From positions 64,501 to 128,500 of the forward strand of contig NZ_CABFWF030000012.1 in NCBI RefSeq assembly GCF_902153245.2: 64,000 bases of DNA. The letters run 5' to 3'. Source of the stretch: Pseudorhizobium endolithicum. Lineage in GTDB: Bacteria; Pseudomonadota; Alphaproteobacteria; Rhizobiales; Rhizobiaceae. Of this stretch, positions 50,397 through 60,760 are shown piece by piece. Below the pieces are notes generated by a model. It searched no databases, had not been told where the DNA came from, and saw nothing but the letters and a program-made list of their open reading frames with translations. Numbering within the stretch: the stretch's first letter is position 1; every line of letters begins with the position of its first letter. A program made the position numbers and the translations under genes.

Positions 50397-52061
50397 TCAG
50401 CCGCTTCCGCTGAACGTCCGGACGAAAAGCGCGCGGAACTCGCTCATCGGAAGCGGCGGCCGGTCGTCGTCCGGAAGCGTGCCCCGCGGCCAGTCCCATG
50501 AGGCCGTATGCTCGATGGCAGCCGGCGGACCGATGATGTGGATCGGGACATCCCGGGAGGCGTCCTCGCCGGTAATGATGGCGGCCGGCTGGTGATCGCC
50601 AACGATGACCATCACCGTATTCCGGCCACGTCGCTCGATATAGGACGAGAGCGTTTCCAGCACATAGTCGAGGCATGCGAGGTAATGCTGCCGGACACGG
50701 CCGGGATCGGCCCAGAGCACTGCCGGCGGTTCCCCGGCGAGCGCCTGCTCGTCAAATATGCTGCCGTCCCCGACGTCGTCCCAGTCGATCATCTGCGGAA
50801 CGGGAGTCCAGGGCGCATGGCTGGAGATCAACGCGATCTGCGCCATCACGGGGCCACTCCTTCCCGACCGTTCCAACCGTTCGAAAGCCGATAGTGTGTA
50901 CTGGTCGGGCATCGTCACCCAGTTGAACGGCTTGCCGCGATAACCCAGTCCCTCTGCGTCTCGGACCCTGTCATAGCCGAAATACGCGCTCTCCGGCCAG
51001 GCCATCGTTATGGCGGGCATGATCGCCGTCGTCCGCCATCCGGCCCGTCGGAAGAGGGCATTGATGGTCGGCCGCAGGCTGGCGGTCATCCGGTCGTAGC
51101 GCAACTGGCTGTCGGTCCAGAGACCGGAAAGAAGCGCCCCATGCGCAAGCCAGCTGAGACCCGAGACGGTGGGGGATGTCAGCCAGCCGCTGCGGGCTTC
51201 CAGTCCGGCTGCTGCTGCGCTTGCTTCCATCTGCGCCAGTCTTTTTCGGATGCTGCCTGCATAACGCTGATCCGAAAGTGCACTTCTTCCGTAGGATTCG
51301 ACGAAGATGAACAGAACATCCGTTCCCTCCAGCTTCGAGAAAAGCTGTTGCGGAGGCAGGGCGGCAAGGGGGTCTGTGGCGAGCTCGTGTTGGAATTCGG
51401 CGAGGTCCGCCATCGATTGGCGGATCATCGAGACGCGGCTCAGAAGAAGGGGTAAGGCATCTGCGGATACGCGGGGAATCGACGGAGGCAGGAGGAGTAT
51501 GACGCACCCCAGGAGCAAAGTCCCGGCCATCGCGGCTGCGAGAACGCGCGAGGCTTGAGCCGGAATCTGCCGGAATCCCGCCAGTGACCGGAAGAGAGTT
51601 GCCGCGATGAGCAGGCATGCCGCTATACCTGCCGCAAGGGCAAGAGCCGCCTCAGTCCGCCCGATCGAGCGGCTCAGGAGATCCCAGCCATCGCTGATGA
51701 TCTTCAGATCCAGATAGGGGTTGAACGGTCGCTGGAACGCGGCCTGCGTCCCGAGGTCCGCCAGCTTCAGCAAAAGGAGAAGGATCAGGATGGAAACCAC
51801 CGCAGGCCGGAGGATTGCAAAGCCGGCCCGAGGCAGCAGGAGCGCGGCAAGGGCGATCGCCGGAAGTTCCAGTGGAATGCCGAGCCACCCGCTGAAGGAA
51901 AAATCCGCAAGCCGGCTCGGAAGGTCAAGTATGGCCGCCATGACGGTGAAAGCGATGGCTATCCTCCGCCATGCGGACCTGCCCGAGCCGCCTTTCCGGC
52001 CATGGTCGCCGGCTCTTCCCCGCTCCGGGGTCCGAAGTTTCTTGTCGATATGTTCGGTCAT
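50397..52061 (-). CDS. Membrane sulfatase-like hydrolase/phosphotransferase
   Basis: 554-aa inner-membrane protein of the alkaline-phosphatase superfamily, in the LTA-synthase/phosphoglycerol-transferase style. About five helices in the first 200 residues precede a periplasmic domain. The domain starts TDVLFIFVESYGRSAL (first metal-binding acid), has SPTVSGLSWLAHGALLSGLW with the probable nucleophile, and VMVIVGDHQPAA for the second metal site. ATG 52061 (MTEHIDKKL) is preferred to an upstream TTG. It lies 66 bases after the CDP-alcohol phosphatidyltransferase gene on the same strand, suggesting joint work on a lipid head group. True substrate unknown. Confidence 0.8.
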   Translation of the reverse strand: MTEHIDKKLRTPERGRAGDHGRKGGSGRSAWRRIAIAFTVMAAILDLPSRLADFSFSGWLGIPLELPAIALAALLLPRAGFAILRPAVVSILILLLLLKLADLGTQAAFQRPFNPYLDLKIISDGWDLLSRSIGRTEAALALAAGIAACLLIAATLFRSLAGFRQIPAQASRVLAAAMAGTLLLGCVILLLPPSIPRVSADALPLLLSRVSMIRQSMADLAEFQHELATDPLAALPPQQLFSKLEGTDVLFIFVESYGRSALSDQRYAGSIRKRLAQMEASAAAAGLEARSGWLTSPTVSGLSWLAHGALLSGLWTDSQLRYDRMTASLRPTINALFRRAGWRTTAIMPAITMAWPESAYFGYDRVRDAEGLGYRGKPFNWVTMPDQYTLSAFERLERSGRSGPVMAQIALISSHAPWTPVPQMIDWDDVGDGSIFDEQALAGEPPAVLWADPGRVRQHYLACLDYVLETLSSYIERRGRNTVMVIVGDHQPAAIITGEDASRDVPIHIIGPPAAIEHTASWDWPRGTLPDDDRPPLPMSEFRALFVRTFSGSG

Positions 52062-52127
52062 TGAGCATGCCAAAGGCGCAACCGCTGAGGCGATTTTGCG
52101 CCGTCCGGCCTGATCGCGGCGGTGAAC

Positions 52128-52925
52128 TCAGGCCTCACCTGTGATCTTCCTGTCGTTCAGAAGGTAGGTCACATCGGCCGTAAATGAATAGAAAAGCAAT
52201 GCAAGAGCGAGCCCGAGGAGGGGTGCCGACAGGGCATGGGGAACAATCGGCATAAGCGCGACGGCAAGCGCCGCCCCCTGCAAGACGCAAATCAGTTTGC
52301 GTCGCCACGAGTCCCGCAGGTCTCCCCGCATCCTTGGGATCAGCCACTGGGCGAGGACGAAGGCGTAGCGCATCAATCCGATCATCAGAACCCATGGACC
52401 TGCCTTGCCGGCGAGTGCAGCCAAGGCCGACAGGAGAAGAATGAGGAAGGCATCCACCTCCATGTCGAAGCGGGCGCCATATCGCGAGACGGTCCCGCTT
52501 TTTCGCGCGAGGTGGCCGTCGACACCGTCCAGTCCGAGAAAGACGGCGGCAACACCCGTGACGATCCAGAGCGTGGAGGAGAGGGGAGCCTGCGACGACG
52601 GCAGGGCGGCGGCAACGATTCCGCCGATACCCGCGGCAAGGGCGGCTCGGAACGTGGTCGTGGCGTTCGCGGGCCCGAATGCCCCGTGGGGATAGAGGTG
52701 CAGATACCGAAGAGCAAGAAATCCGATCACGGAGAAGATCATCAGGCCGGCAACCGAAGCCGTTCCCGTTATTCCGGTCGCAGGCCCCATGACGTCTGCC
52801 GCGAGAAAGACGACCAGAGCCGAAGCTGTCATATACAGTACGGCCTGGGCGTGTACAGGCGGAGGCCGGCCGCTCCAACTCCGGCCTGGCTTCAGGGGCC
52901 GGCCTCCGTCAAGATTGCTAACCAT
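52128..52925 (-). CDS. CDP-alcohol phosphatidyltransferase
   Basis: 265-aa integral membrane enzyme that transfers a phosphoalcohol from a CDP-linked donor. The full family signature is present: D-G-x2-A-R-x8-G-x3-D-x3-D, running from DGHLAR to YGARFDMEVD. About six helices surround it. ATG 52925 (MVSNLDGGRP) has GGAG 7 bases upstream. The gene precedes the sulfatase-like gene and is divergent from the pterin-like cluster. It is not in a pgsA or cdsA context, so a specialised lipid or soluble acceptor is likely. Confidence 0.85.
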   Translation of the reverse strand: MVSNLDGGRPLKPGRSWSGRPPPVHAQAVLYMTASALVVFLAADVMGPATGITGTASVAGLMIFSVIGFLALRYLHLYPHGAFGPANATTTFRAALAAGIGGIVAAALPSSQAPLSSTLWIVTGVAAVFLGLDGVDGHLARKSGTVSRYGARFDMEVDAFLILLLSALAALAGKAGPWVLMIGLMRYAFVLAQWLIPRMRGDLRDSWRRKLICVLQGAALAVALMPIVPHALSAPLLGLALALLFYSFTADVTYLLNDRKITGEA

Positions 52926-53124
52926 CTTCCGGCTCCGGCGGGAGATGCAGTTCATCTGAACCGGCCATGCCGTTCCTGCAGACCCGAATTTATGAACTAT
53001 GCATGACAGTCTCCACGGCAGCAATACATGGCGCATTCCTCGCCGCCGGGCAGATAGCGTCAAATTAACGTGAAGCCACCGGGCTTGGTGCAAGTCGAGG
53101 ATCTTGTCCTGACCGCCGTGCCCG

Positions 53125-53162: not shown

Positions 53163-54167
53163 GTGAGGATCGCAGAGATCGGTCGTTTGGCTGGAGACCG
53201 CGACAACCGGGCGAAGGCCCTGTGGTTCGAGGAAGCGCGCACCTGCGTCCTCCGCGATGAGCCGCTGCCGCCTCCGGGTCCGAAGGACGCGACGGTGCGG
53301 GCTTTGTTCAGCGGCATCAGCCGCGGGACGGAGGCATTGGTGTTCGAGGGCCATGTGCCGGAAAGCGAATACGACCGGATGCAGGGACCTCACCAGGGAG
53401 GAAAGCTGCCCTTTCCCGTCAAGTACGGCTATGCGGTGGTGGGCGTCGTGGAAGAGGGGCCGGCGGAGCTTTCAGGGCGCACTGTCTTCTGCCTCCATCC
53501 GCACCAGGACCGGTTCCGGGTCGAAGCGTCGGCGGTCCATCCGGTCCCTGAAGATGTGCCTGCTGGCCGTGCCGTTCTGGCCGCCAACATGGAGACGGCG
53601 CTGAACATCGTGTGGGACGCCGGCATCCTGCCCGGCGATCGGGTGGCGGTGTTCGGCGCGGGGGTGGTAGGCCTCCTGACCGCCTATATCGCATCCCGTA
53701 TCCCCGGTACGGAAACCGTCATCTGCGACACCTCCCCCGTGCGCGGGACGCAGGCCGGCGCTCTGGGGCTGGCCTTCGCTCTGCCGCAGGAGGGGCCGGT
53801 GAACTGCGACGTGCTCGTCAACGCTTCCGCGGCCCCGGAGGCGCTCGCCGGTGCGATCGACCACGCCGGCTTCGAAGCAAAGATCGTCGAGGCGAGCTGG
53901 TACGGCGACAGGTTGGCTTCCCTCTGCCTCGGAGGCGCCTTCCATGCCCGGCGGCTCTCCATCGTCAGTTCCCAGGTCGGCTCCGTCGCGGCGGGTCGCC
54001 GCGCCCGCTGGAACCCTGCAAGACGGCTGCGCAAGGCGCTCGACCTGTTGGCCGATGAGCGGCTGGATGTGCTGATCTCCGGAGAGACGCCCTTCGCAGA
54101 TATCGCCGAACCCTATCCCGGCATCATCGCTTCGCCGGATACGCTGTGTCATCGTATTCGATACTGA
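53163..54167 (+). CDS. Zinc-less medium-chain dehydrogenase-like protein
   Basis: 334-aa MDR-superfamily protein. The N-terminal GroES-like part resembles alcohol dehydrogenases but lacks the catalytic zinc residues: the CGxCGTD region reads SGISRGTE (50-57) and the GHE motif reads GYA (89-91). The Rossmann motif VAVFGAGVVGLLTAYIA is intact, so NAD(P) binding is expected. The SGISRGTE and VKYGYAVVG signatures recall BchC-like reductases. Start GTG 53163 has GGGGAGAGG upstream. It is the first gene of a tightly packed run with the PTPS-like, GT4 and methyltransferase genes. Reaction unknown. Confidence 0.8.
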   Translation: MRIAEIGRLAGDRDNRAKALWFEEARTCVLRDEPLPPPGPKDATVRALFSGISRGTEALVFEGHVPESEYDRMQGPHQGGKLPFPVKYGYAVVGVVEEGPAELSGRTVFCLHPHQDRFRVEASAVHPVPEDVPAGRAVLAANMETALNIVWDAGILPGDRVAVFGAGVVGLLTAYIASRIPGTETVICDTSPVRGTQAGALGLAFALPQEGPVNCDVLVNASAAPEALAGAIDHAGFEAKIVEASWYGDRLASLCLGGAFHARRLSIVSSQVGSVAAGRRARWNPARRLRKALDLLADERLDVLISGETPFADIAEPYPGIIASPDTLCHRIRY

Positions 54168-54177
54168 AAGGAAACCC

Positions 54178-54576
54178 ATGTACGCCGTCGAGGTCCGTGA
54201 CCATATCATGATCGCCCACAGCCTGCCGCGACCGGTGTTCGGTCCGGCGCAGGGCATGCACGGTGCGACCTTTGTCGTCGACGCGGCATTCTTCACCGCT
54301 GATCTCGATGATAACGGGCTGGCGGTCGACATCGGCCTTGCAACGGCAGCGCTGGCCGAGGCTCTGAAGCCGCTGAACTACCAGAACCTGGATGAGCTGG
54401 AGCCTTTCCGCGGCAAGGTCACCACCACCGAATTCCTGGCGAGGCATATCTTCGACCAGTTGGCCGATGCGATCGCGAACGGACGGCTCGGTGAGGGCGG
54501 CAGCCGTATCAGGCGGCTGCGGGTGCTGCTGCACGAGTCGCATGCCGCGCGCGGCTGGTACGAGGGGGAGCTTTGA
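54178..54576 (+). CDS. QueD/6-pyruvoyl-tetrahydropterin synthase-like protein with altered active site
   Basis: 132-aa T-fold protein. H14 and H28 match two zinc ligands of QueD, but the third (HGH) is alanine (HGA, A30). The catalytic cysteine position is A24, and the Asp-His pair of the catalytic triad reads N67-Y68 (PLNYQNLDE). The pterin-anchoring glutamate is kept (E120 in LLHESHAAR). The comparison uses my recollection of E. coli QueD. The fold and ligand pocket seem kept while the classical chemistry is lost. It starts 10 bases after the dehydrogenase gene, with AAGGAAA, and overlaps the GT4 start. No queC, queE or queF is near, so queuosine synthesis is not suggested. Confidence 0.82.
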   Translation: MYAVEVRDHIMIAHSLPRPVFGPAQGMHGATFVVDAAFFTADLDDNGLAVDIGLATAALAEALKPLNYQNLDELEPFRGKVTTTEFLARHIFDQLADAIANGRLGEGGSRIRRLRVLLHESHAARGWYEGEL

Positions 54577-55616
54577 GCGGAACGCTTTATTTCGCCTATC
54601 CGGGCGACCTCCAGGCACGAACCGGGGGATATGGTTACGATCGCAGGCTGGTTGCGGAACTCGGGCACATGGGCTGGGACGTGCGGCTCCTGCCGCTGGG
54701 CAGCGGTTTTCCCGATATTGATCCGCAGCGCCTTTCGAAGGCGGCCGAGGTGCTCGATGCAGTTCCCGACGGGGCACTCGTGCTGGTGGATGGTCTGGCC
54801 TTCGGCGTACTGGATGAATGGGCTGCCCGGCGGCATGACGATGTCCGTCTCCTTGCCCTGGTGCATCACCCGCTGGCGCTGGAGACGGGGCTTCCGGCAA
54901 CCGTTCAGGAGGAATATCGTCGGCGCGAAAAGCACGCGCTTTCATTCGTGCGCGGTGCCATTGTCACCTCCGCCGCCACCGCGCGGGAGCTTGAACAGAA
55001 CTATGGCCTGTCCCAGGCAGCCATCGCGATCGCTTCTCCGGGAACAGATCCGGCCCCGCTCGCTGGAGGCAGCGGCGATATACCGGCCATTCTGAGCGTC
55101 GGATCGCTGATCCGACGGAAGGGACATGACGTGCTGATCGATGCGCTGGCCATGCTGCGTGATCTTTCCTGGACGTGCAGGATCGTCGGCAGCCGGGCAC
55201 TTGATCCCGCAGCCGCCGACGCGCTCGAAGCGCAGATACTTGCCGCGGGTCTGGCTGACCGCATTGCGCTCGTGGGCGAGGTGGAGGACGTGCGCACCGA
55301 ATATATGCGTGCCGATGTCTTTGCGCTGGCAAGCCGTTACGAGGGCTACGGCATGGTGTTTGCGGAAGCCCTGGTACACGGTCTGCCGATCGTGGGCTGC
55401 GCAGCCGGCGCGGTTCCGGACGTGGTGCCGGAAGGGACAGGCCTGCTCGTGCCGCCGGATGACCCGCGGGCTCTGTCTAAGGCACTGCGGCGCGTGTTGA
55501 CGGACACGAATTTGCGCTCCGCAATGGCGGATGCCGCGGCCGTTGGCGGTGCGTCACTTCCGTCCTGGCGCGAGACGGCAGCGGTCGTTGCCCGGTTCCT
55601 GGAGGAGCGCGGATGA
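54573..55616 (+). CDS. Glycosyltransferase family 4 protein
   Basis: 347-aa GT-B glycosyltransferase. The C-terminal donor domain has SVGSLIRRKGHDVLIDAL, the retaining EX7E motif in SRYEGYGMVFAEALVHG, and PDVVPEGTGLLVPPDD. The N-terminal acceptor domain starts LYFAYPGDLQARTGGYGYDR. It begins with TTG at 54573, overlapping the previous stop as TTGA, with a strong GAGGGGGAG just upstream. It is followed by the methyltransferase with a four-base overlap. Sugar donor and acceptor are unknown; the acceptor may be the product of the neighbouring pterin-like enzymes or a lipid. Confidence 0.88.
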   Translation: MSGTLYFAYPGDLQARTGGYGYDRRLVAELGHMGWDVRLLPLGSGFPDIDPQRLSKAAEVLDAVPDGALVLVDGLAFGVLDEWAARRHDDVRLLALVHHPLALETGLPATVQEEYRRREKHALSFVRGAIVTSAATARELEQNYGLSQAAIAIASPGTDPAPLAGGSGDIPAILSVGSLIRRKGHDVLIDALAMLRDLSWTCRIVGSRALDPAAADALEAQILAAGLADRIALVGEVEDVRTEYMRADVFALASRYEGYGMVFAEALVHGLPIVGCAAGAVPDVVPEGTGLLVPPDDPRALSKALRRVLTDTNLRSAMADAAAVGGASLPSWRETAAVVARFLEERG

Positions 55617-56401
55617 GCGGGTTCGACATTCGTTGGCTCGACCTGCGAGAACCCGCCGACCGGCGGGCGCGGGACGCAGGACTATTGGCGGCGGCATTGG
55701 CAGCTATCCATCGGGCAGGAACGGCGCGGGTGCTCGATATCGGCTGCGGCACCGGCTCGACCTATCGCATGCTCAGGACGTGGCTCCGGTCGACGGTGCA
55801 ATGGCAACTTCTCGACCGAGATCCGCGCCTGCTCGCCGAGGCCAGGCGGCGTCATGGCGGAGATGCCCTTACCTTTGTGGAGGGCGATCTGGCCGAACTG
55901 GAGAGGCTGCCATTGGAGGGGGCGGCGCTGGTGACGGCGTCGGCGCTCTTCGATCTCTGCTCTGCCGACTTCATGGCCCGCTTCGTGTGTCGCCTGCGCC
56001 GCGCGGGTGTGGGTCTCTACGCGGCGCTCAACTATGACGGCGAGATGTCATGGTCCCATCGGCATCCCCTGGACGATGAGGTGGTGAAGTCCTTCAACGC
56101 GCATCAGAGCAGGGATAAGGGTTTCGGTGCCGCCGCAGGGCCGGATGCGTGGAGCATCCTTTCCGACAATCTCCACGCGCAGGACTTTCGCATCATGACG
56201 GCGGCCAGCCCGTGGATTCTCGGGGGGCAGGATGCCGAGCTCCAGCGATCGCTGCTGGACGGTATAGTGGAGGCTGTTGCCGAGGAGGGGAACCTGAGCG
56301 CGAAGGACCTGCAGGATTGGCACGCCTACCGGATTGCCGCGATCACCAGTCCGGTAAGCTCATGCCGTGTCGGACATCAGGATGTTCTCGCTCTCTGCTG
56401 A
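55613..56401 (+). CDS. Class I SAM-dependent methyltransferase
   Basis: 262-aa methyltransferase. The SAM-binding motif I is VLDIGCGTGSTYRML near residue 40, followed by the acidic LLDRDPRLL and the GDLAEL loop. ATG 55613 overlaps the GT4 stop as ATGA. It is the last gene of the plus-strand run; its final 42 bases overlap the 3' end of the convergent RibD-like gene. The acceptor is unknown. Confidence 0.87.
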   Translation: MSGFDIRWLDLREPADRRARDAGLLAAALAAIHRAGTARVLDIGCGTGSTYRMLRTWLRSTVQWQLLDRDPRLLAEARRRHGGDALTFVEGDLAELERLPLEGAALVTASALFDLCSADFMARFVCRLRRAGVGLYAALNYDGEMSWSHRHPLDDEVVKSFNAHQSRDKGFGAAAGPDAWSILSDNLHAQDFRIMTAASPWILGGQDAELQRSLLDGIVEAVAEEGNLSAKDLQDWHAYRIAAITSPVSSCRVGHQDVLALC

Positions 56402-57178
56402 CGATACCCTTCGCCGGACGGACCGGAAGTCGCAATCGAAGACGAAGTCGGTGCCGATGTCATAGACATTCACCTTCGGGCGGCGGGCCTCCGAGAGGCG
56501 GTCCACAGGGGCCAGCGTCGTGCCCATCGGCCCTGACCCGATGATGATCGGCGCGATCGAGACATGCAGGCGATCGACGAGATCGGCATCGATGAAGCGG
56601 GCGATGGTCTTTGCGCCACCTTCGACCAGGATGCCGGTCAAGCCGCGGGCTGCCAGTTCATCCAGGATATCGCGGGGATGAAGCCCGCCGCCACGGCGGG
56701 GAAGCCTCACCACCTCGCTCTCCGGAGGTGGCTCGGGAGCATCATCGGCCTGCACGATCAGCACGGGCGCGCCTCCATCCCTCAGCATCTTGGCATTGGG
56801 TGGGATGCGGCCGTTGCAGTCGATCACGACCCGGACCGGATTGGGACCGGGAACGGCGCGAACGGAAAGGCTGGGATCGTCCGCCACCACCGTGCCGACG
56901 CCGACGACAACGGCGTCAACCAGGGCGCGGCAGCGATGAAGATGGGCAATTCCGTCGCAGCCGGAGACGTCCTGTGCGTCTCCCGTCGGCGTCGCGACCC
57001 GGCCGTCGAGGGACTGCCCGACCTGCGCGAGGACCAGGGGACGGTCGCGCAGTGCGATGGGGGCGTAGAGGCGCCACGCCGCTTCCGCGTTGTCGGGCGA
57101 TTGCGATGTTGCCGAAGGGTCTCGGCGAAGGGCAAGGAGCCGCTGCCAGATTTCCTCGGTCATCCTTGCCGCGTACAT
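56360..57178 (-). CDS. RibD-family reductase (no deaminase domain)
   Basis: 272-aa protein with only the RibD C-terminal reductase domain (dihydrofolate-reductase-like fold). Signature segments are LAQVGQSLDGRVATPTG, VVVGVGTVVADDPSLSVR, ILVEGGAKTIARFID and APIIIGSGPMG. The zinc-binding deaminase motifs of full RibD are absent. ATG 57178 follows GGGAGGGGAA, better than ATG 57214. It faces the methyltransferase gene with a 42-base 3' overlap. It should reduce a ribosylated pyrimidine- or pterin-like intermediate with NADPH, matching the PTPS-like neighbour. It is not in a riboflavin operon. Confidence 0.85.
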   Translation of the reverse strand: MYAARMTEEIWQRLLALRRDPSATSQSPDNAEAAWRLYAPIALRDRPLVLAQVGQSLDGRVATPTGDAQDVSGCDGIAHLHRCRALVDAVVVGVGTVVADDPSLSVRAVPGPNPVRVVIDCNGRIPPNAKMLRDGGAPVLIVQADDAPEPPPESEVVRLPRRGGGLHPRDILDELAARGLTGILVEGGAKTIARFIDADLVDRLHVSIAPIIIGSGPMGTTLAPVDRLSEARRPKVNVYDIGTDFVFDCDFRSVRRRVSSAESENILMSDTA

Positions 57179-57301
57179 TTCCCCTCCCAAAAGCATGCGA
57201 TCGATAGCCGTCAATGCCCGGCCGATCCGGATGTTCCGGAGCGGAGGCTGCTTCCAGGCGTACGATCCCTCAACATCCTCCCCGGTGCAAGGCAGCCTGG
57301 A

Positions 57302-58084
57302 TCAGGTGCTCCTTCCACCCAGATCATCGAGATAGGTATTTTCCGCCCGTGACGCCGCATAGGCTGACAGATCGATGTCCGTCACGAGCAGCGCCTCGCC
57401 CTCCGCTGCCGCTTCTGCAAGCAAAGAGCCGTCCGGCGCGGCGATCCGGGAAAGGCCGGCATAGGCGAAATGCGGGTCGGAGCCGCAGTGGTTGACATAG
57501 GCGACGAAGACCTGGTTCTCGAAGGCGCGCACGCGGATCATGTGCTCGGCGATGAAGCGGCCCGACGAGCCGGCCGGCAAAGCCGTCGGGACCACGACCA
57601 GTTCGGCGCCCGCCCGGGCGAGCCGCCGCACGTTTTCAGGGAACTCGACATCGTAGCAGATCAGCATGCCGATCCTGACGCCGTCCACCGATGTGAGGAT
57701 CGAGGCGGGATTGGCCGGGCGGAACCAGCGTTTTTCGTAAGGTCCGTAGAGATGGGACTTTCGGTAGACGGTCTGTTGGCCTTCGCCCTCGGTGAGGAGG
57801 GCGCTGTTGTAGACGTCGTCGCCGTCCCTTTCCGCGAAGCCGGCGACGATGGCAAGGCCATGCCGGCTTGCAATGGCTGCAAGCCGTTCGGGAAGATCAC
57901 CGTCCGCAGAGTCGGCGAGGTCAGGGAAATGCTCGGCCGCGCCATAGCCCGTCAGCGCCAGTTCGGGAGCTATGAGAAGCCGGGCGCCGGTCGCGGCAGC
58001 CTGGGCGGCGGCCGTCTCGATCTTCATGAGGTTGGCGTCGATGTTGCCGACTGTGGCCTGCATCTGCAGCCCGGCGATCTTCAT
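57302..58084 (-). CDS. Nitrilase-family carbon-nitrogen hydrolase (amidase)
   Basis: 260-aa C-N hydrolase with an intact Glu-Lys-Cys triad: E in LIAPELALTGYG, K in VYRKSHLYGPYEKRWF and C in GMLICYDVEFPE. It is the last gene of an ABC importer operon, overlapping the permease stop by four bases, and the same strand carries a ureohydrolase upstream. A 4-guanidinobutyramide or other amide of a guanidino/polyamine compound is therefore a likely substrate. N-carbamoylputrescine amidase is an alternative, but that family is usually nearer 290 aa. Nitrilase or cyanide-hydrolase activity is less likely. Confidence 0.83.
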   Translation of the reverse strand: MKIAGLQMQATVGNIDANLMKIETAAAQAAATGARLLIAPELALTGYGAAEHFPDLADSADGDLPERLAAIASRHGLAIVAGFAERDGDDVYNSALLTEGEGQQTVYRKSHLYGPYEKRWFRPANPASILTSVDGVRIGMLICYDVEFPENVRRLARAGAELVVVPTALPAGSSGRFIAEHMIRVRAFENQVFVAYVNHCGSDPHFAYAGLSRIAAPDGSLLAEAAAEGEALLVTDIDLSAYAASRAENTYLDDLGGRST

Positions 58085-58878
58085 CGCTCGTCTCCCATTG
58101 CTCCCAGGAGCTTCGGCAGGTCACCGAAACGGGCGACGAGGCCGAAGACGAGCGCCGCGATCGCCAGGAACAGGACGGTGACCGAGGCCATGGTCGGCGT
58201 ATATCCGTAGCGCAGCGCGTTGAAGATCTTGATCGGCAGCGTTTCCATCGTGAAGCCGACGGTCATGTAGGCGACGATGTATTCGTTCAGCGACAGCACG
58301 AAGGCGAAGGCATAGCCGGAAACGATGTAGGGCAGGATCAGCGGCAGTACGACCGTGCGGAAAATCACCCGGTCATCGGCGCCCATGGTTGCGGCGGCTT
58401 CGACCAGCGAGCGGTCGATGGCGGAAAAGCCGAGTGACAGCGTGACGAGCGGCAGCGTGACGAAAAAGATGGCATGGCTGATGGCGGCGGTCCAAGGCTG
58501 GCCGTAGAAGCCGGTGGTGGCCCAGAAGGTCAGTAGGCCAAGTGCGGTGATGACCGGCGGCAGGGTGAAGGGCGCCACGCCCAGCAGTTGGAAGATGTTC
58601 GCCCAGGGCGCCACCCGCCGCCACAGGAACCAGGCGAGTGGGAGCGCGATCACCAGCGCAAGCGCTGCCGAAGTCGCGGCAAGCGTCAGGGATGCCACAA
58701 GTGCGCTGCGCCATTCCGGATTGGTGAAGATCTCACTATACCATGACAGCGAGAAACCCTGGGGCGGGAAGGCAAGTGTCTGCTTCTCGTTGATGGACAC
58801 GCCGGCGACGACGATCAGGGGCAGGGCGAGGAACAGCCCCACGGCAAAGAAGAACAGACGCTTCAGCAGGGAAGTCAT
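58081..58878 (-). CDS. Polyamine-type ABC transporter permease 2 (PotC type)
   Basis: 265-aa permease with six helices. The EAA loop reads FSAIDRSLVEAAATMGADDR with VVLPLILPYIVSG. ATG 58878 (MTSLLKRLFFF) has AAGGAGG 4 bases upstream and overlaps the stop of permease 1. It forms the channel with the protein encoded at 58875-59729. The operon order SBP-ATPase-permease-permease is that of Pot and related importers. Confidence 0.9.
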   Translation of the reverse strand: MTSLLKRLFFFAVGLFLALPLIVVAGVSINEKQTLAFPPQGFSLSWYSEIFTNPEWRSALVASLTLAATSAALALVIALPLAWFLWRRVAPWANIFQLLGVAPFTLPPVITALGLLTFWATTGFYGQPWTAAISHAIFFVTLPLVTLSLGFSAIDRSLVEAAATMGADDRVIFRTVVLPLILPYIVSGYAFAFVLSLNEYIVAYMTVGFTMETLPIKIFNALRYGYTPTMASVTVLFLAIAALVFGLVARFGDLPKLLGAMGDER

Positions 58879-59729
58879 GCAGCCTCCTTGCGGCGTCCGG
58901 CATAGACCGCCAGGCCGACGAGTGCGAGCGAGACGAGCACGAGGAAGACGGCCATGGCGGCGGCGAAAGGCATGTTCGACTGGTAGATCGCCTGGTCGGT
59001 GATGAGCACGGAGAGCGTCCAGTGCTGGGGGCGGCCGAGAAGCTGCGGCAGCAGGTAGGAGCCGAGCGCAAAGATGAAGACCATGATCAGCGTCGCCAGG
59101 ATAGTGTTGCGCAGTGCCGGCACCACGACGGTGAAGAAGGCGCGTATCGGGGAGGCGCCGAGGGTGCGGGCAGCTTCCGTCAAGGTGGGATCGAGACGGA
59201 CGAGTGCCGGATAGAGAACCAGGACGGTGTAGGGCAGGGCCTGGTAGGTCATCGCCGTCATCACGGCGCCGAAACTTGGCGTCAGAGCCTGCGGCGTCTC
59301 CATTATGCCGATCGCGACGAGGAGGTTGGTCAGCCCGGCGGTGCGGGAGAACAGGGTGGACCAGGCAAAGCCGATCATCACCTCCGACAGCGACAGGATC
59401 GACAGCAGGGCGACGAGCCAGAGAATCTGCACCTTCCGGGCGGCCCTGGACATCAGATAGGTGAAGGGAACACCGATCACGATGCAGGCAACAGCGACGG
59501 CGACGGCGAGGAAAAGCGAAAAGCCGAGAACCTTGCCGAAGAAGAGGCTGAGGAAGCGGGCGTAATTGTCCCAGACGAAGGCCGGCTGGTAGAAGCCGCC
59601 CTGCTCGCGCTCGAAGAAGGAGACCGCGATCATCGTCGCGAAGGGGATCACGAAGAAGACGATCAGCATCCCCGCCGGGAAGAGGAGCGGGCCGTAGTCG
59701 GCGAGCCGCTGGGGCGGTTCGCGCCTCAT
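58875..59729 (-). CDS. Polyamine-type ABC transporter permease 1 (PotB type)
   Basis: 284-aa inner-membrane permease with six helices. The coupling loop reads VRLDPTLTEAARTLGASPIR with FFTVVVPALRNTIL. It overlaps the ATPase stop by four bases and the second permease gene by four bases. The segment SYLLPQLLGRPQHWTLSVLI is typical of PotB-like subunits. Confidence 0.91.
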   Translation of the reverse strand: MRREPPQRLADYGPLLFPAGMLIVFFVIPFATMIAVSFFEREQGGFYQPAFVWDNYARFLSLFFGKVLGFSLFLAVAVAVACIVIGVPFTYLMSRAARKVQILWLVALLSILSLSEVMIGFAWSTLFSRTAGLTNLLVAIGIMETPQALTPSFGAVMTAMTYQALPYTVLVLYPALVRLDPTLTEAARTLGASPIRAFFTVVVPALRNTILATLIMVFIFALGSYLLPQLLGRPQHWTLSVLITDQAIYQSNMPFAAAMAVFLVLVSLALVGLAVYAGRRKEAA

Positions 59730-60760
59730 CGGGCAAGCACCACGCTGGTCGCGGGGTCGAGCCGGATGCCGACCTGCTGACCGACCGTCACCTCCGGCCG
59801 TGTGCGTGGAGCGGAGACGGCGACGATCTGCTGGCCGGAAGCTTCCACGAAGGTTTCCACGGTGCCGCCGAGGTCGCGGATGAAGGTGACGCTACCGTCG
59901 ATGGTGCCGTTGCCGGGTGCGGTGATCTGCACGTCTTCCGGCCGGACGGAAATCGTCCCCGCCATGGCACCGGCGAGCGCGAGGCCCTCGACAGGCGTTC
60001 CAAACACGGTGGCCCGGCCGCTGCCGTCGACGGTGTAGGGGAGAAGGTTGGTTGAGCCGATGAAATCGGCCACGAAGGAATCCGCCGGCCGGCGGTAGAT
60101 ATCGACGGGTGCGGCGGCCTGGCGGATTTCGCCGCCGTTCATCACCACCACCGTATCGGCCATGGTCATGGCTTCGCGCTGGTCGTGGGTGACGACGATG
60201 GTCGTGATACCGAGCTGCTGCTGCAACTGGCGCAGTTCCACCTGCATTGCCTCGCGCAGCTTTGCGTCGAGCGCCGAAAGCGGCTCGTCGAGCAGGAAGA
60301 GCTTGGGCGAAATAGCCAAGGCACGGGCGATCGCCACGCGCTGGCGCTGCCCGCCGGAGAGCTTCGTGACGGAGCGGTCGGCGAAGCCTCCCAGGTGGAT
60401 CATCGCCAGCAACTCGTCGACCCGTTTCGTCTGCTCCTCCTTCGGCACGCCGCGGATGCGCAGCGCATAGGCGATGTTTTCCCCGACCGTCAGGTGCGGG
60501 AAGAGCGCCAGCGACTGGAAGACCATGCCCAGATTGCGCTTGTGGGTCGCAACCTGGGTAATGTCCTCGCCGCCCAGCCGGATCGAGCCGCGGGTCGGCA
60601 GGTCCAGGCCGGCGATCATGCGCATCAACGTTGTCTTGCCGCAGCCCGAGGGGCCGAGCAGGCACACGAAGGTACCGTCCGGAACCGACAGGCTCACGTC
60701 GTTGACGGCTGTGAACGTGCCGAACTGCTTCGTCACGTTGCTGAGGATAAGTCCAGACAT
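59726..60760 (-). CDS. Polyamine-type ABC transporter ATP-binding protein (PotA type)
   Basis: 344-aa ATPase with an intact set of motifs: Walker A GPSGCGKTTLM, signature LSGGQRQRVAIARAL, Walker B LFLLDEPLSALD and switch histidine VVTHDQREAM. The C-terminal third is a TOBE_2 regulatory domain. It lies 86 bases after the binding-protein gene, with a strong hairpin in the gap, and is coupled to the permease genes. Substrate: a polyamine, putrescine-like or guanidino compound by family and context. Confidence 0.92.
   Translation of the reverse strand: MSGLILSNVTKQFGTFTAVNDVSLSVPDGTFVCLLGPSGCGKTTLMRMIAGLDLPTRGSIRLGGEDITQVATHKRNLGMVFQSLALFPHLTVGENIAYALRIRGVPKEEQTKRVDELLAMIHLGGFADRSVTKLSGGQRQRVAIARALAISPKLFLLDEPLSALDAKLREAMQVELRQLQQQLGITTIVVTHDQREAMTMADTVVVMNGGEIRQAAAPVDIYRRPADSFVADFIGSTNLLPYTVDGSGRATVFGTPVEGLALAGAMAGTISVRPEDVQITAPGNGTIDGSVTFIRDLGGTVETFVEASGQQIVAVSAPRTRPEVTVGQQVGIRLDPATSVVLAR

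Follow-up and report, generated by a model that had tools for sequence, protein, structure and literature searches.

Introduction

The 6-pyruvoyltetrahydropterin synthase (PTPS) family, which includes QueD, is composed of T-fold proteins with a catalytic Cys, zinc-binding His residues, a triad His, and a ring-anchoring Glu, whose roles are applied here to aligned positions. A family member of Streptomyces coelicolor with a determined structure, SCO6650 (3d7j), reportedly possesses neither the zinc nor the triad and exhibits no PTPS activity. It presumably shares its neighborhood with the GTP cyclohydrolase II SCO6655, which is said, from the work of Spoonamore and Bandarian, to carry Met instead of Tyr at one position and to stop at a formylated intermediate. 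For Sinorhizobium meliloti, PMC9478397 describes the creatininase-family protein BrbF, which removes the formyl group of this intermediate and has a CobW gene as its neighbor. In this study, we analyzed a 64,000-nucleotide stretch of Pseudorhizobium endolithicum DNA (contig NZ_CABFWF030000012.1, positions 64,501 to 128,500; hereafter, the window), in which genes for an MDR-type dehydrogenase, a PTPS-like protein of the SCO6650 type, a GT4 glycosyltransferase, and a methyltransferase face a gene for a reductase-only RibD protein. We give about an even chance to the reading that this SCO6650-type module is a branch off riboflavin synthesis, leaving it before deamination and giving a glycosylated, methylated, and often lipid-linked compound.

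Conservation and Distribution of the Gene Set

Distant genomes carry the gene set in the same order. The core partners MDR, GT4, and methyltransferase lay no more than 9 kb from the PTPS-like gene in 123, 121, and 107 of 125 loci, respectively; the four genes were complete in 104 loci, in 102 of which they kept the same order and strand. RibD was near in 87 loci and a CDP-alcohol phosphatidyltransferase in 85, followed by RibA (56), LPG_synthase_TM (52), creatininase (44), LtaS-like (29), MdoH (25), YceI (21), and cytochrome b561 (15). At least one of RibA, RibD, and creatininase was thus counted in 103 loci, and at least one of CDP-alcohol, LPG_synthase_TM, LtaS-like, YceI, and MdoH in 106. 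All of these loci were picked by their PTPS-like gene, so that every count means "given PTPS". They consist of 40 alphaproteobacterial loci picked for diversity (11 from the matches in relatives and 29 from the class sample; 8 cut short by contig ends), 5 plasmid loci examined out of 20 records with a PTPS-like match, and 80 named loci, which are the best 80 of at least 594 matched stretches (591 confirmed) ranked against a Thiodictyon sequence and several of which stop at contig ends. Duplicates were kept, as the PTPS proteins of L082/L171 and L197/L203 are identical (124 distinct of 126). The family profiles were built from the 40 alphaproteobacterial loci together with the window protein, and the 80 named loci are therefore the more independent test; they contained MDR in 80, GT4 in 78, methyltransferase in 64, RibD in 53, CDP-alcohol in 68, LPG_synthase_TM in 47, RibA in 39, and creatininase in 36. 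The rest of the window was used as a control for chance, and the profile of each gene of the set gave one match in the whole 64 kb, always at this locus. The co-occurrence of the five families, proposed as a check in the initial annotation, is widespread among the 125 loci, and the GTP cyclohydrolase that it suggested looking for is indeed a frequent neighbor, although of type II (RibA, Pfam GTP_cyclohydro2) and not type I. Among the four core proteins, pairwise distances correlated with r of 0.66–0.83 over 73 loci.

Neighbor names were checked with Pfam on one or two representatives of each family and confirmed, except that MdoH gave a GT2 domain only. This MdoH-matching gene (L067–L077, L103, and others) never occurs in a locus with an LtaS-like gene. 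Halomonas-type loci (L131, L133, L143, L174, and L196) have a second CDP-alcohol-like match beyond the creatininase, and then the MdoH match. Clustering of the leftover open reading frames (ORFs) gave five groups in at least six loci, the largest being an ABC ATPase (18 loci), with a response regulator as a further group (6 loci); no RibB, RibH, or RibE group and no type I GTP cyclohydrolase family was found among these groups.

Among relatives, 39 of 60 have the PTPS-like protein (two weak matches, at 27% identity); in the class sample it was detected in 45 of 385 genomes and in the phylum sample in 28 of 398, the window's own genome being included in each. The loci are spread over Alpha-, Beta-, and Gammaproteobacteria, actinomycetes, and metagenome-assembled genomes labelled Acidobacteria and Gemmatimonadales. 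Chromatiaceae, Halomonas, Marinobacter, Variovorax, Streptomyces, and Actinomadura are among the matches listed, and plasmid copies were found in Rhizobium, Methylosinus, and Streptomyces. The cluster is compact and present in culturable bacteria such as Streptomyces and Methylosinus trichosporium. Two small alphaproteobacterial genomes, L092 (1.6 Mb) and L094 (1.4 Mb), hold RibA, RibD, creatininase, MDR, PTPS, GT4, and methyltransferase at one locus. That the set is retained across four or more bacterial phyla (two of which are represented in this sample by metagenome-assembled genomes alone) and in genomes of 1.4–1.6 Mb implies a useful product. A Rhodobacteraceae plasmid (L105:10984-13891) possesses MDR, PTPS, methyltransferase, and RibD with no GT4 nearby, which suggests an unglycosylated product or a glycosyltransferase encoded elsewhere. 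An orphan SCO6650-type PTPS gene was also observed on a Streptomyces anthocyanicus plasmid (L101:14001-14426) beside MEKHLA and cupin genes, with none of the profiled partners nearby.

Active Site of the PTPS-Like Protein

A single-sequence search of the PDB with the PTPS-like protein gave only one match at E ≤ 0.001, which was SCO6650 (3d7j, E = 4.2e-37). The profile search detected 3d7j at 2.3e-63 and also reached PTPS and QueD chains, including 4ntk. In all 126 sequences, Ala24 and Ala30 stand where the PTPS enzymes have their catalytic Cys and the second His of their HGH zinc motif, and His14, His28, and Glu120 are likewise invariant. The triad His position is occupied by Tyr in 96 sequences, Phe in 21, Leu in 6, and Met in 3. 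The score was below the NCBIfam cut-off for both QueD (TIGR03367, 31.2 versus 89.25) and PTPS (TIGR00039, 21.1 versus 125.5). As Glu120 is kept and the positions of the Cys, the zinc His, and the triad His are changed, these residues indicate that the protein probably binds a 2-amino-4-oxo ring and does not run the known reaction. It is the only PTPS-family Pfam match at E ≤ 0.001 in its own genome, which is rated 99.99% complete and in which no canonical QueD was detected by the same Pfam search.

Proposed Link to the Riboflavin Route

The best PDB matches of the window's RibD-like protein were 6p8c and then 2azn, showing diaminopyrimidine reductases as its nearest relatives in that database, with a score of 113.8 against TIGR01508 that stays below the cut-off of 186.45. 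On sequence grounds, we propose that it is a 2,5-diamino-6-ribosylamino-pyrimidinone 5'-phosphate reductase. For the cluster RibAs, the switch residue was evaluated in 55 proteins, L095 being excluded for its weak score (43 bits) and the absence of a residue at the switch column. It was Tyr in 35, Met in 13, including the Streptomyces-locus RibA, and His in 7. A creatininase gene is near all 20 non-Tyr RibAs, one of which is a likely repeat from loci with identical PTPS proteins, compared with 19 of the 35 Tyr RibAs (Fisher p = 1.5e-4). Among actinomycetes, the Tyr RibAs of L169, L172, and L205 (Actinoplanes-type) have no creatininase within the retrieved stretch (p = 5.6e-4).

No cluster-type RibA was found in the window's own genome, which has one cyclohydrolase II Pfam match, a RibBA-type protein (L106:865-1965, C18) whose RibA part is without the Cys motif of the cluster RibAs. 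This protein fits the still missing cyclohydrolase "BrbG" proposed in PMC9478397. The genome further contains a creatininase gene that has a CobW gene approximately 0.8 kb away, which is also the neighbor of BrbF, and a separate full RibD with the deaminase domain beside a lumazine-binding, riboflavin-synthase-type ORF. Within the genus group of the window (11 genomes), cluster-type RibA occurs only in G009 and G035, in both cases inside the cluster.

Gene Organization in the Window

The features of the locus are listed in Table 1. Both the ORFs and the DNA letters bear out the four closely coupled plus-strand genes of the initial annotation, with a 10-base gap between the MDR and PTPS-like genes and 4-base overlaps at the PTPS-like/GT4 (TTGA) and GT4/methyltransferase (ATGA) junctions. 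The facing reductase-only RibD gene is likewise supported by its Pfam match; it is convergent with the operon, overlaps the 3' end of the methyltransferase gene by 42 bases, and may have a later start near 57178. The coordinates given for the cluster were right, but its extent stopped short of the CDP-alcohol and LtaS-like genes (50397–53000), which are part of the same module, the latter lying 54 bases downstream of the former on the same strand. The lipid side represented by these two genes of the window was overlooked in the initial annotation. A profile scan of the 64 kb gave no module-type RibA, creatininase, or LPG_synthase_TM. The RibD-like gene is adjoined by a nitrilase-family gene and then ABC transporter genes (57302–60760, minus strand), and that nitrilase has no counterpart in the 40 alphaproteobacterial loci.

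Table 1. Genes of the SCO6650-type module in the window
Gene product	Position	Strand	Remarks
Zinc-less MDR-type dehydrogenase (BchC-like)	53163..54167	+	First operon gene; NCBIfam BchC match below cut-off
PTPS-like T-fold protein, SCO6650 type	54178..54576	+	Pfam PTPS 71.1 bits (cut-off 22.4)
GT4 glycosyltransferase	54573..55616	+	TTG start; Pfam Glycos_transf_1 108.9 bits
Class I S-adenosylmethionine-dependent methyltransferase	55613..56401	+	Pfam Methyltransf_25 37.7 bits (cut-off 27)
RibD_C reductase-only protein	56360..57214	-	Pfam RibD_C 142.3 bits (cut-off 24.1); without deaminase domain
CDP-alcohol phosphatidyltransferase	52128..53000	-	Divergent from operon; start codon uncertain, the ORF extending open as far as 53393
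LtaS-like membrane phosphotransferase (alkaline phosphatase superfamily)	50397..52073	-	Pfam Sulfatase 39.5 bits

The family names assigned at first hold in both Pfam and NCBIfam, save for the MDR protein, which was recognized below cut-offs only. It gave no Pfam match over the cut-off and an NCBIfam BchC score of 48.1 bits that is far under 291, and its PDB matches, which were to sorbitol and alcohol dehydrogenases, were weak. Zinc-dependent MDR dehydrogenases hold the catalytic zinc by Cys and His ligands. At these positions, the protein has the conserved residues S53-R54-G55-T56-E57 and G89-Y90 (S53 in 123, R54 in 119, and Y90 in 124 of 124 sequences), which do not supply the zinc ligands. 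The motifs of the next two enzymes are intact: the E257-x7-E265 pair of GT4 is kept in 122 (E257) and 115 (E265) of 122 sequences, and D42, G46, and G48 of the methyltransferase in 105–107 of 108. The CDP-alcohol protein retains the motif D-x2-DG-x2-AR-x8-G-x3-D-x3-D, of which D158, D161, G162, A165, R166, G175, D179, and D183 are found in 80–81 of 86 sequences; its fold matches phosphatidylglycerophosphate (PGP) synthase, and its score is below the pgsA cut-off (TIGR00560). The AlphaFold model of the LtaS-like protein is closest to LtaP/LtaS, with the catalytic fold placed after membrane helices, and aligned to 4uop with E = 3.2e-9, a probability of 1.00, a TM-score of 0.47 of the target, and 12% identity. 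By this fold, it is assigned to the phosphoglycerol-transferase type as a predicted function.

Proposed Pathway and Alternative Explanations

From the linked genes, a cyclohydrolase II would open GTP to give 2,5-diamino-6-ribosylamino-4(3H)-pyrimidinone 5'-phosphate. Many loci would use their own RibA for this supply, with or without a creatininase-type deformylase, while in the window's genome, which is without a cluster-type RibA and has the housekeeping genes, this compound would be provided by the housekeeping riboflavin pathway and its BrbF-like creatininase. The reductase-only RibD would then reduce the ribosyl to a ribityl chain and leave the 2-amino group in place. The resulting compound could be bound by the PTPS-like T-fold, whose invariant Glu fits a 2-amino-4-oxo-pyrimidine edge, and MDR together with the PTPS-like protein may help to convert it into a modified pyrimidine or pteridine. 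Glycosylation would be carried out by GT4 and methylation by the methyltransferase. In loci with the lipid-side genes, including the window, the PGP-synthase-like CDP-alcohol transferase may link a diacylglycerol lipid to an alcohol phosphate, for which the ribityl phosphate itself is a candidate; LPG_synthase_TM, where present, may flip this lipid, and outside the membrane its head group may be transferred further by the LtaS-like enzyme. In favor of this reading stand the conserved core order, the frequent riboflavin-type and lipid-side neighbors, the pattern between RibA residue and creatininase, the confinement of cluster-type RibA to the cluster in the genus group, the BrbF precedent, the PDB matches of RibD, the invariant Glu120, Ala24, and Ala30, the linkage of the LPG_synthase_TM and LtaS-like genes to the CDP-alcohol gene, and the fold matches to PGP synthase and LtaS/LtaP.

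The core could instead be a true pterin, formed by the chemistry of GTP cyclohydrolase I and PTPS, then reduced by RibD, which has a DHFR-like fold, and finished as a methylated pterin glycoside of the cyanopterin type, cyanopterin being a known pterin glycoside. We regard this as improbable. The PTPS fold with its anchoring Glu and the intact GT4 and methyltransferase motifs agree with it, but the Ala residues that replace the catalytic Cys and one zinc His in every one of the 126 sequences, the Tyr, Phe, Leu, or Met at the triad His, and the sub-cut-off QueD and PTPS scores do not, and the linked cyclohydrolase is of type II with no type I among the recurrent leftover ORF groups. With these active-site losses and a cyclohydrolase of type II, a diaminopyrimidine drawn off the riboflavin route is the better reading of the core, and it may or may not become a pterin; of the pterin- or pyrimidine-derived core considered in the initial annotation, the PTPS-made pterin has partial support only. 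An envelope glycolipid module, in which the CDP-alcohol, GT4, methyltransferase, LPG_synthase_TM, and LtaS-like proteins make a glycosylated phospholipid, with unrelated head-group chemistry left to the PTPS-like and RibD-like proteins, agrees with the changed PTPS site, the fold matches to PGP synthase and LtaS/LtaP, and the tight linkage of the CDP-alcohol gene with LPG_synthase_TM (51 of 52 loci) and LtaS-like (26 of 29). Such a module is doubtful, however, in view of the RibA (56/125) and creatininase (44/125) genes in the same clusters, the pattern between RibA residue and creatininase, and the 40 of 125 loci with no CDP-alcohol gene near. Least likely of all is a soluble, secreted pyrimidine-type secondary metabolite, such as an antibiotic or signal, with the lipid genes as chance neighbors. 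The patchy distribution (28/398 and 45/385 in the phylum and class samples) and the plasmid-borne copies would suit it; the gene order fixed over long distances, the retention in L092 and L094, and the linkage of the lipid genes in several phyla would not, and the candidates for transport or regulation among ORF groups in at least six loci were confined to the ABC ATPase (18) and the response regulator (6).

Several observations weigh against the proposed riboflavin branch itself. RibA, RibD, and creatininase are all absent within 9 kb in 22 of 125 loci, 38 loci have no RibD, and the distances of RibD show the weakest correlation with the core (r 0.41–0.62, 73 loci). Since all non-Tyr RibAs are from actinomycetes and the three Tyr counter-cases are related, ancestry weakens both residue–creatininase tests. 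Furthermore, 19 Tyr-type RibA loci also carry a creatininase; as RibAs of this type should deformylate by themselves, the creatininase may have another function in those loci. How the Met switch in the cluster RibAs is read here follows an abstract. As just 15 of the 40 alphaproteobacterial loci have the CDP-alcohol gene nearby, lipid attachment need not be general.

If the riboflavin branch is real, the riboflavin precursor gains a second widespread fate beside flavins and deazaflavins, the orphan SCO6650 structure gains a pathway and a substrate, and a T-fold protein is shown to work without the usual zinc/Cys site. A bolder extension, which we hold to be unlikely, is an undescribed, phylum-spanning class of membrane lipid ("pteridine phospholipid"), with a glycosylated, methylated 2-amino-pteridine or ribityl-pyrimidine head group; such a lipid would derive from the riboflavin precursor, be flipped outward, and possibly serve as a membrane-bound redox- or light-active cofactor. 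The initial annotation knew of no described pathway with this gene set, and none was found in the text of open-licence PMC papers.

Comparison with Known Systems

The PTPS-like protein shares the family fold and the Glu anchor with QueD and 6-pyruvoyltetrahydropterin synthase, and differs from them in its changed zinc/Cys site and its scores below their cut-offs. Its sequence relationship is with SCO6650 (E = 4.2e-37). The Streptomyces loci, such as L163, have the order PTPS, GT4, methyltransferase, LPG_synthase_TM, creatininase, and RibA, which fits the S. coelicolor tags SCO6650 to SCO6655 as an argument from numbering. Compared with these loci, the window is without RibA, creatininase, and LPG_synthase_TM, and has RibD and the LtaS-like gene. 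The RibD-like protein resembles the archaeal diaminopyrimidine phosphate reductase 2azn, its second-best PDB match, named there 5-amino-6-(5-phosphoribosylamino)uracil reductase, in being a reductase-only RibD_C protein, but it is under the TIGR01508 cut-off; unlike the bifunctional RibD of riboflavin synthesis, it has no N-terminal deaminase domain. With the riboflavin route that uses BrbF in Sinorhizobium meliloti (PMC9478397), the module shares a creatininase-family deformylase and a RibD-type reductase, whose target would be the same early pyrimidine in both. In contrast to that route, the cluster loci show no RibB/RibH/RibE group among the leftover ORF groups in at least six loci, and they add MDR, the PTPS-like protein, GT4, methyltransferase, and lipid genes.

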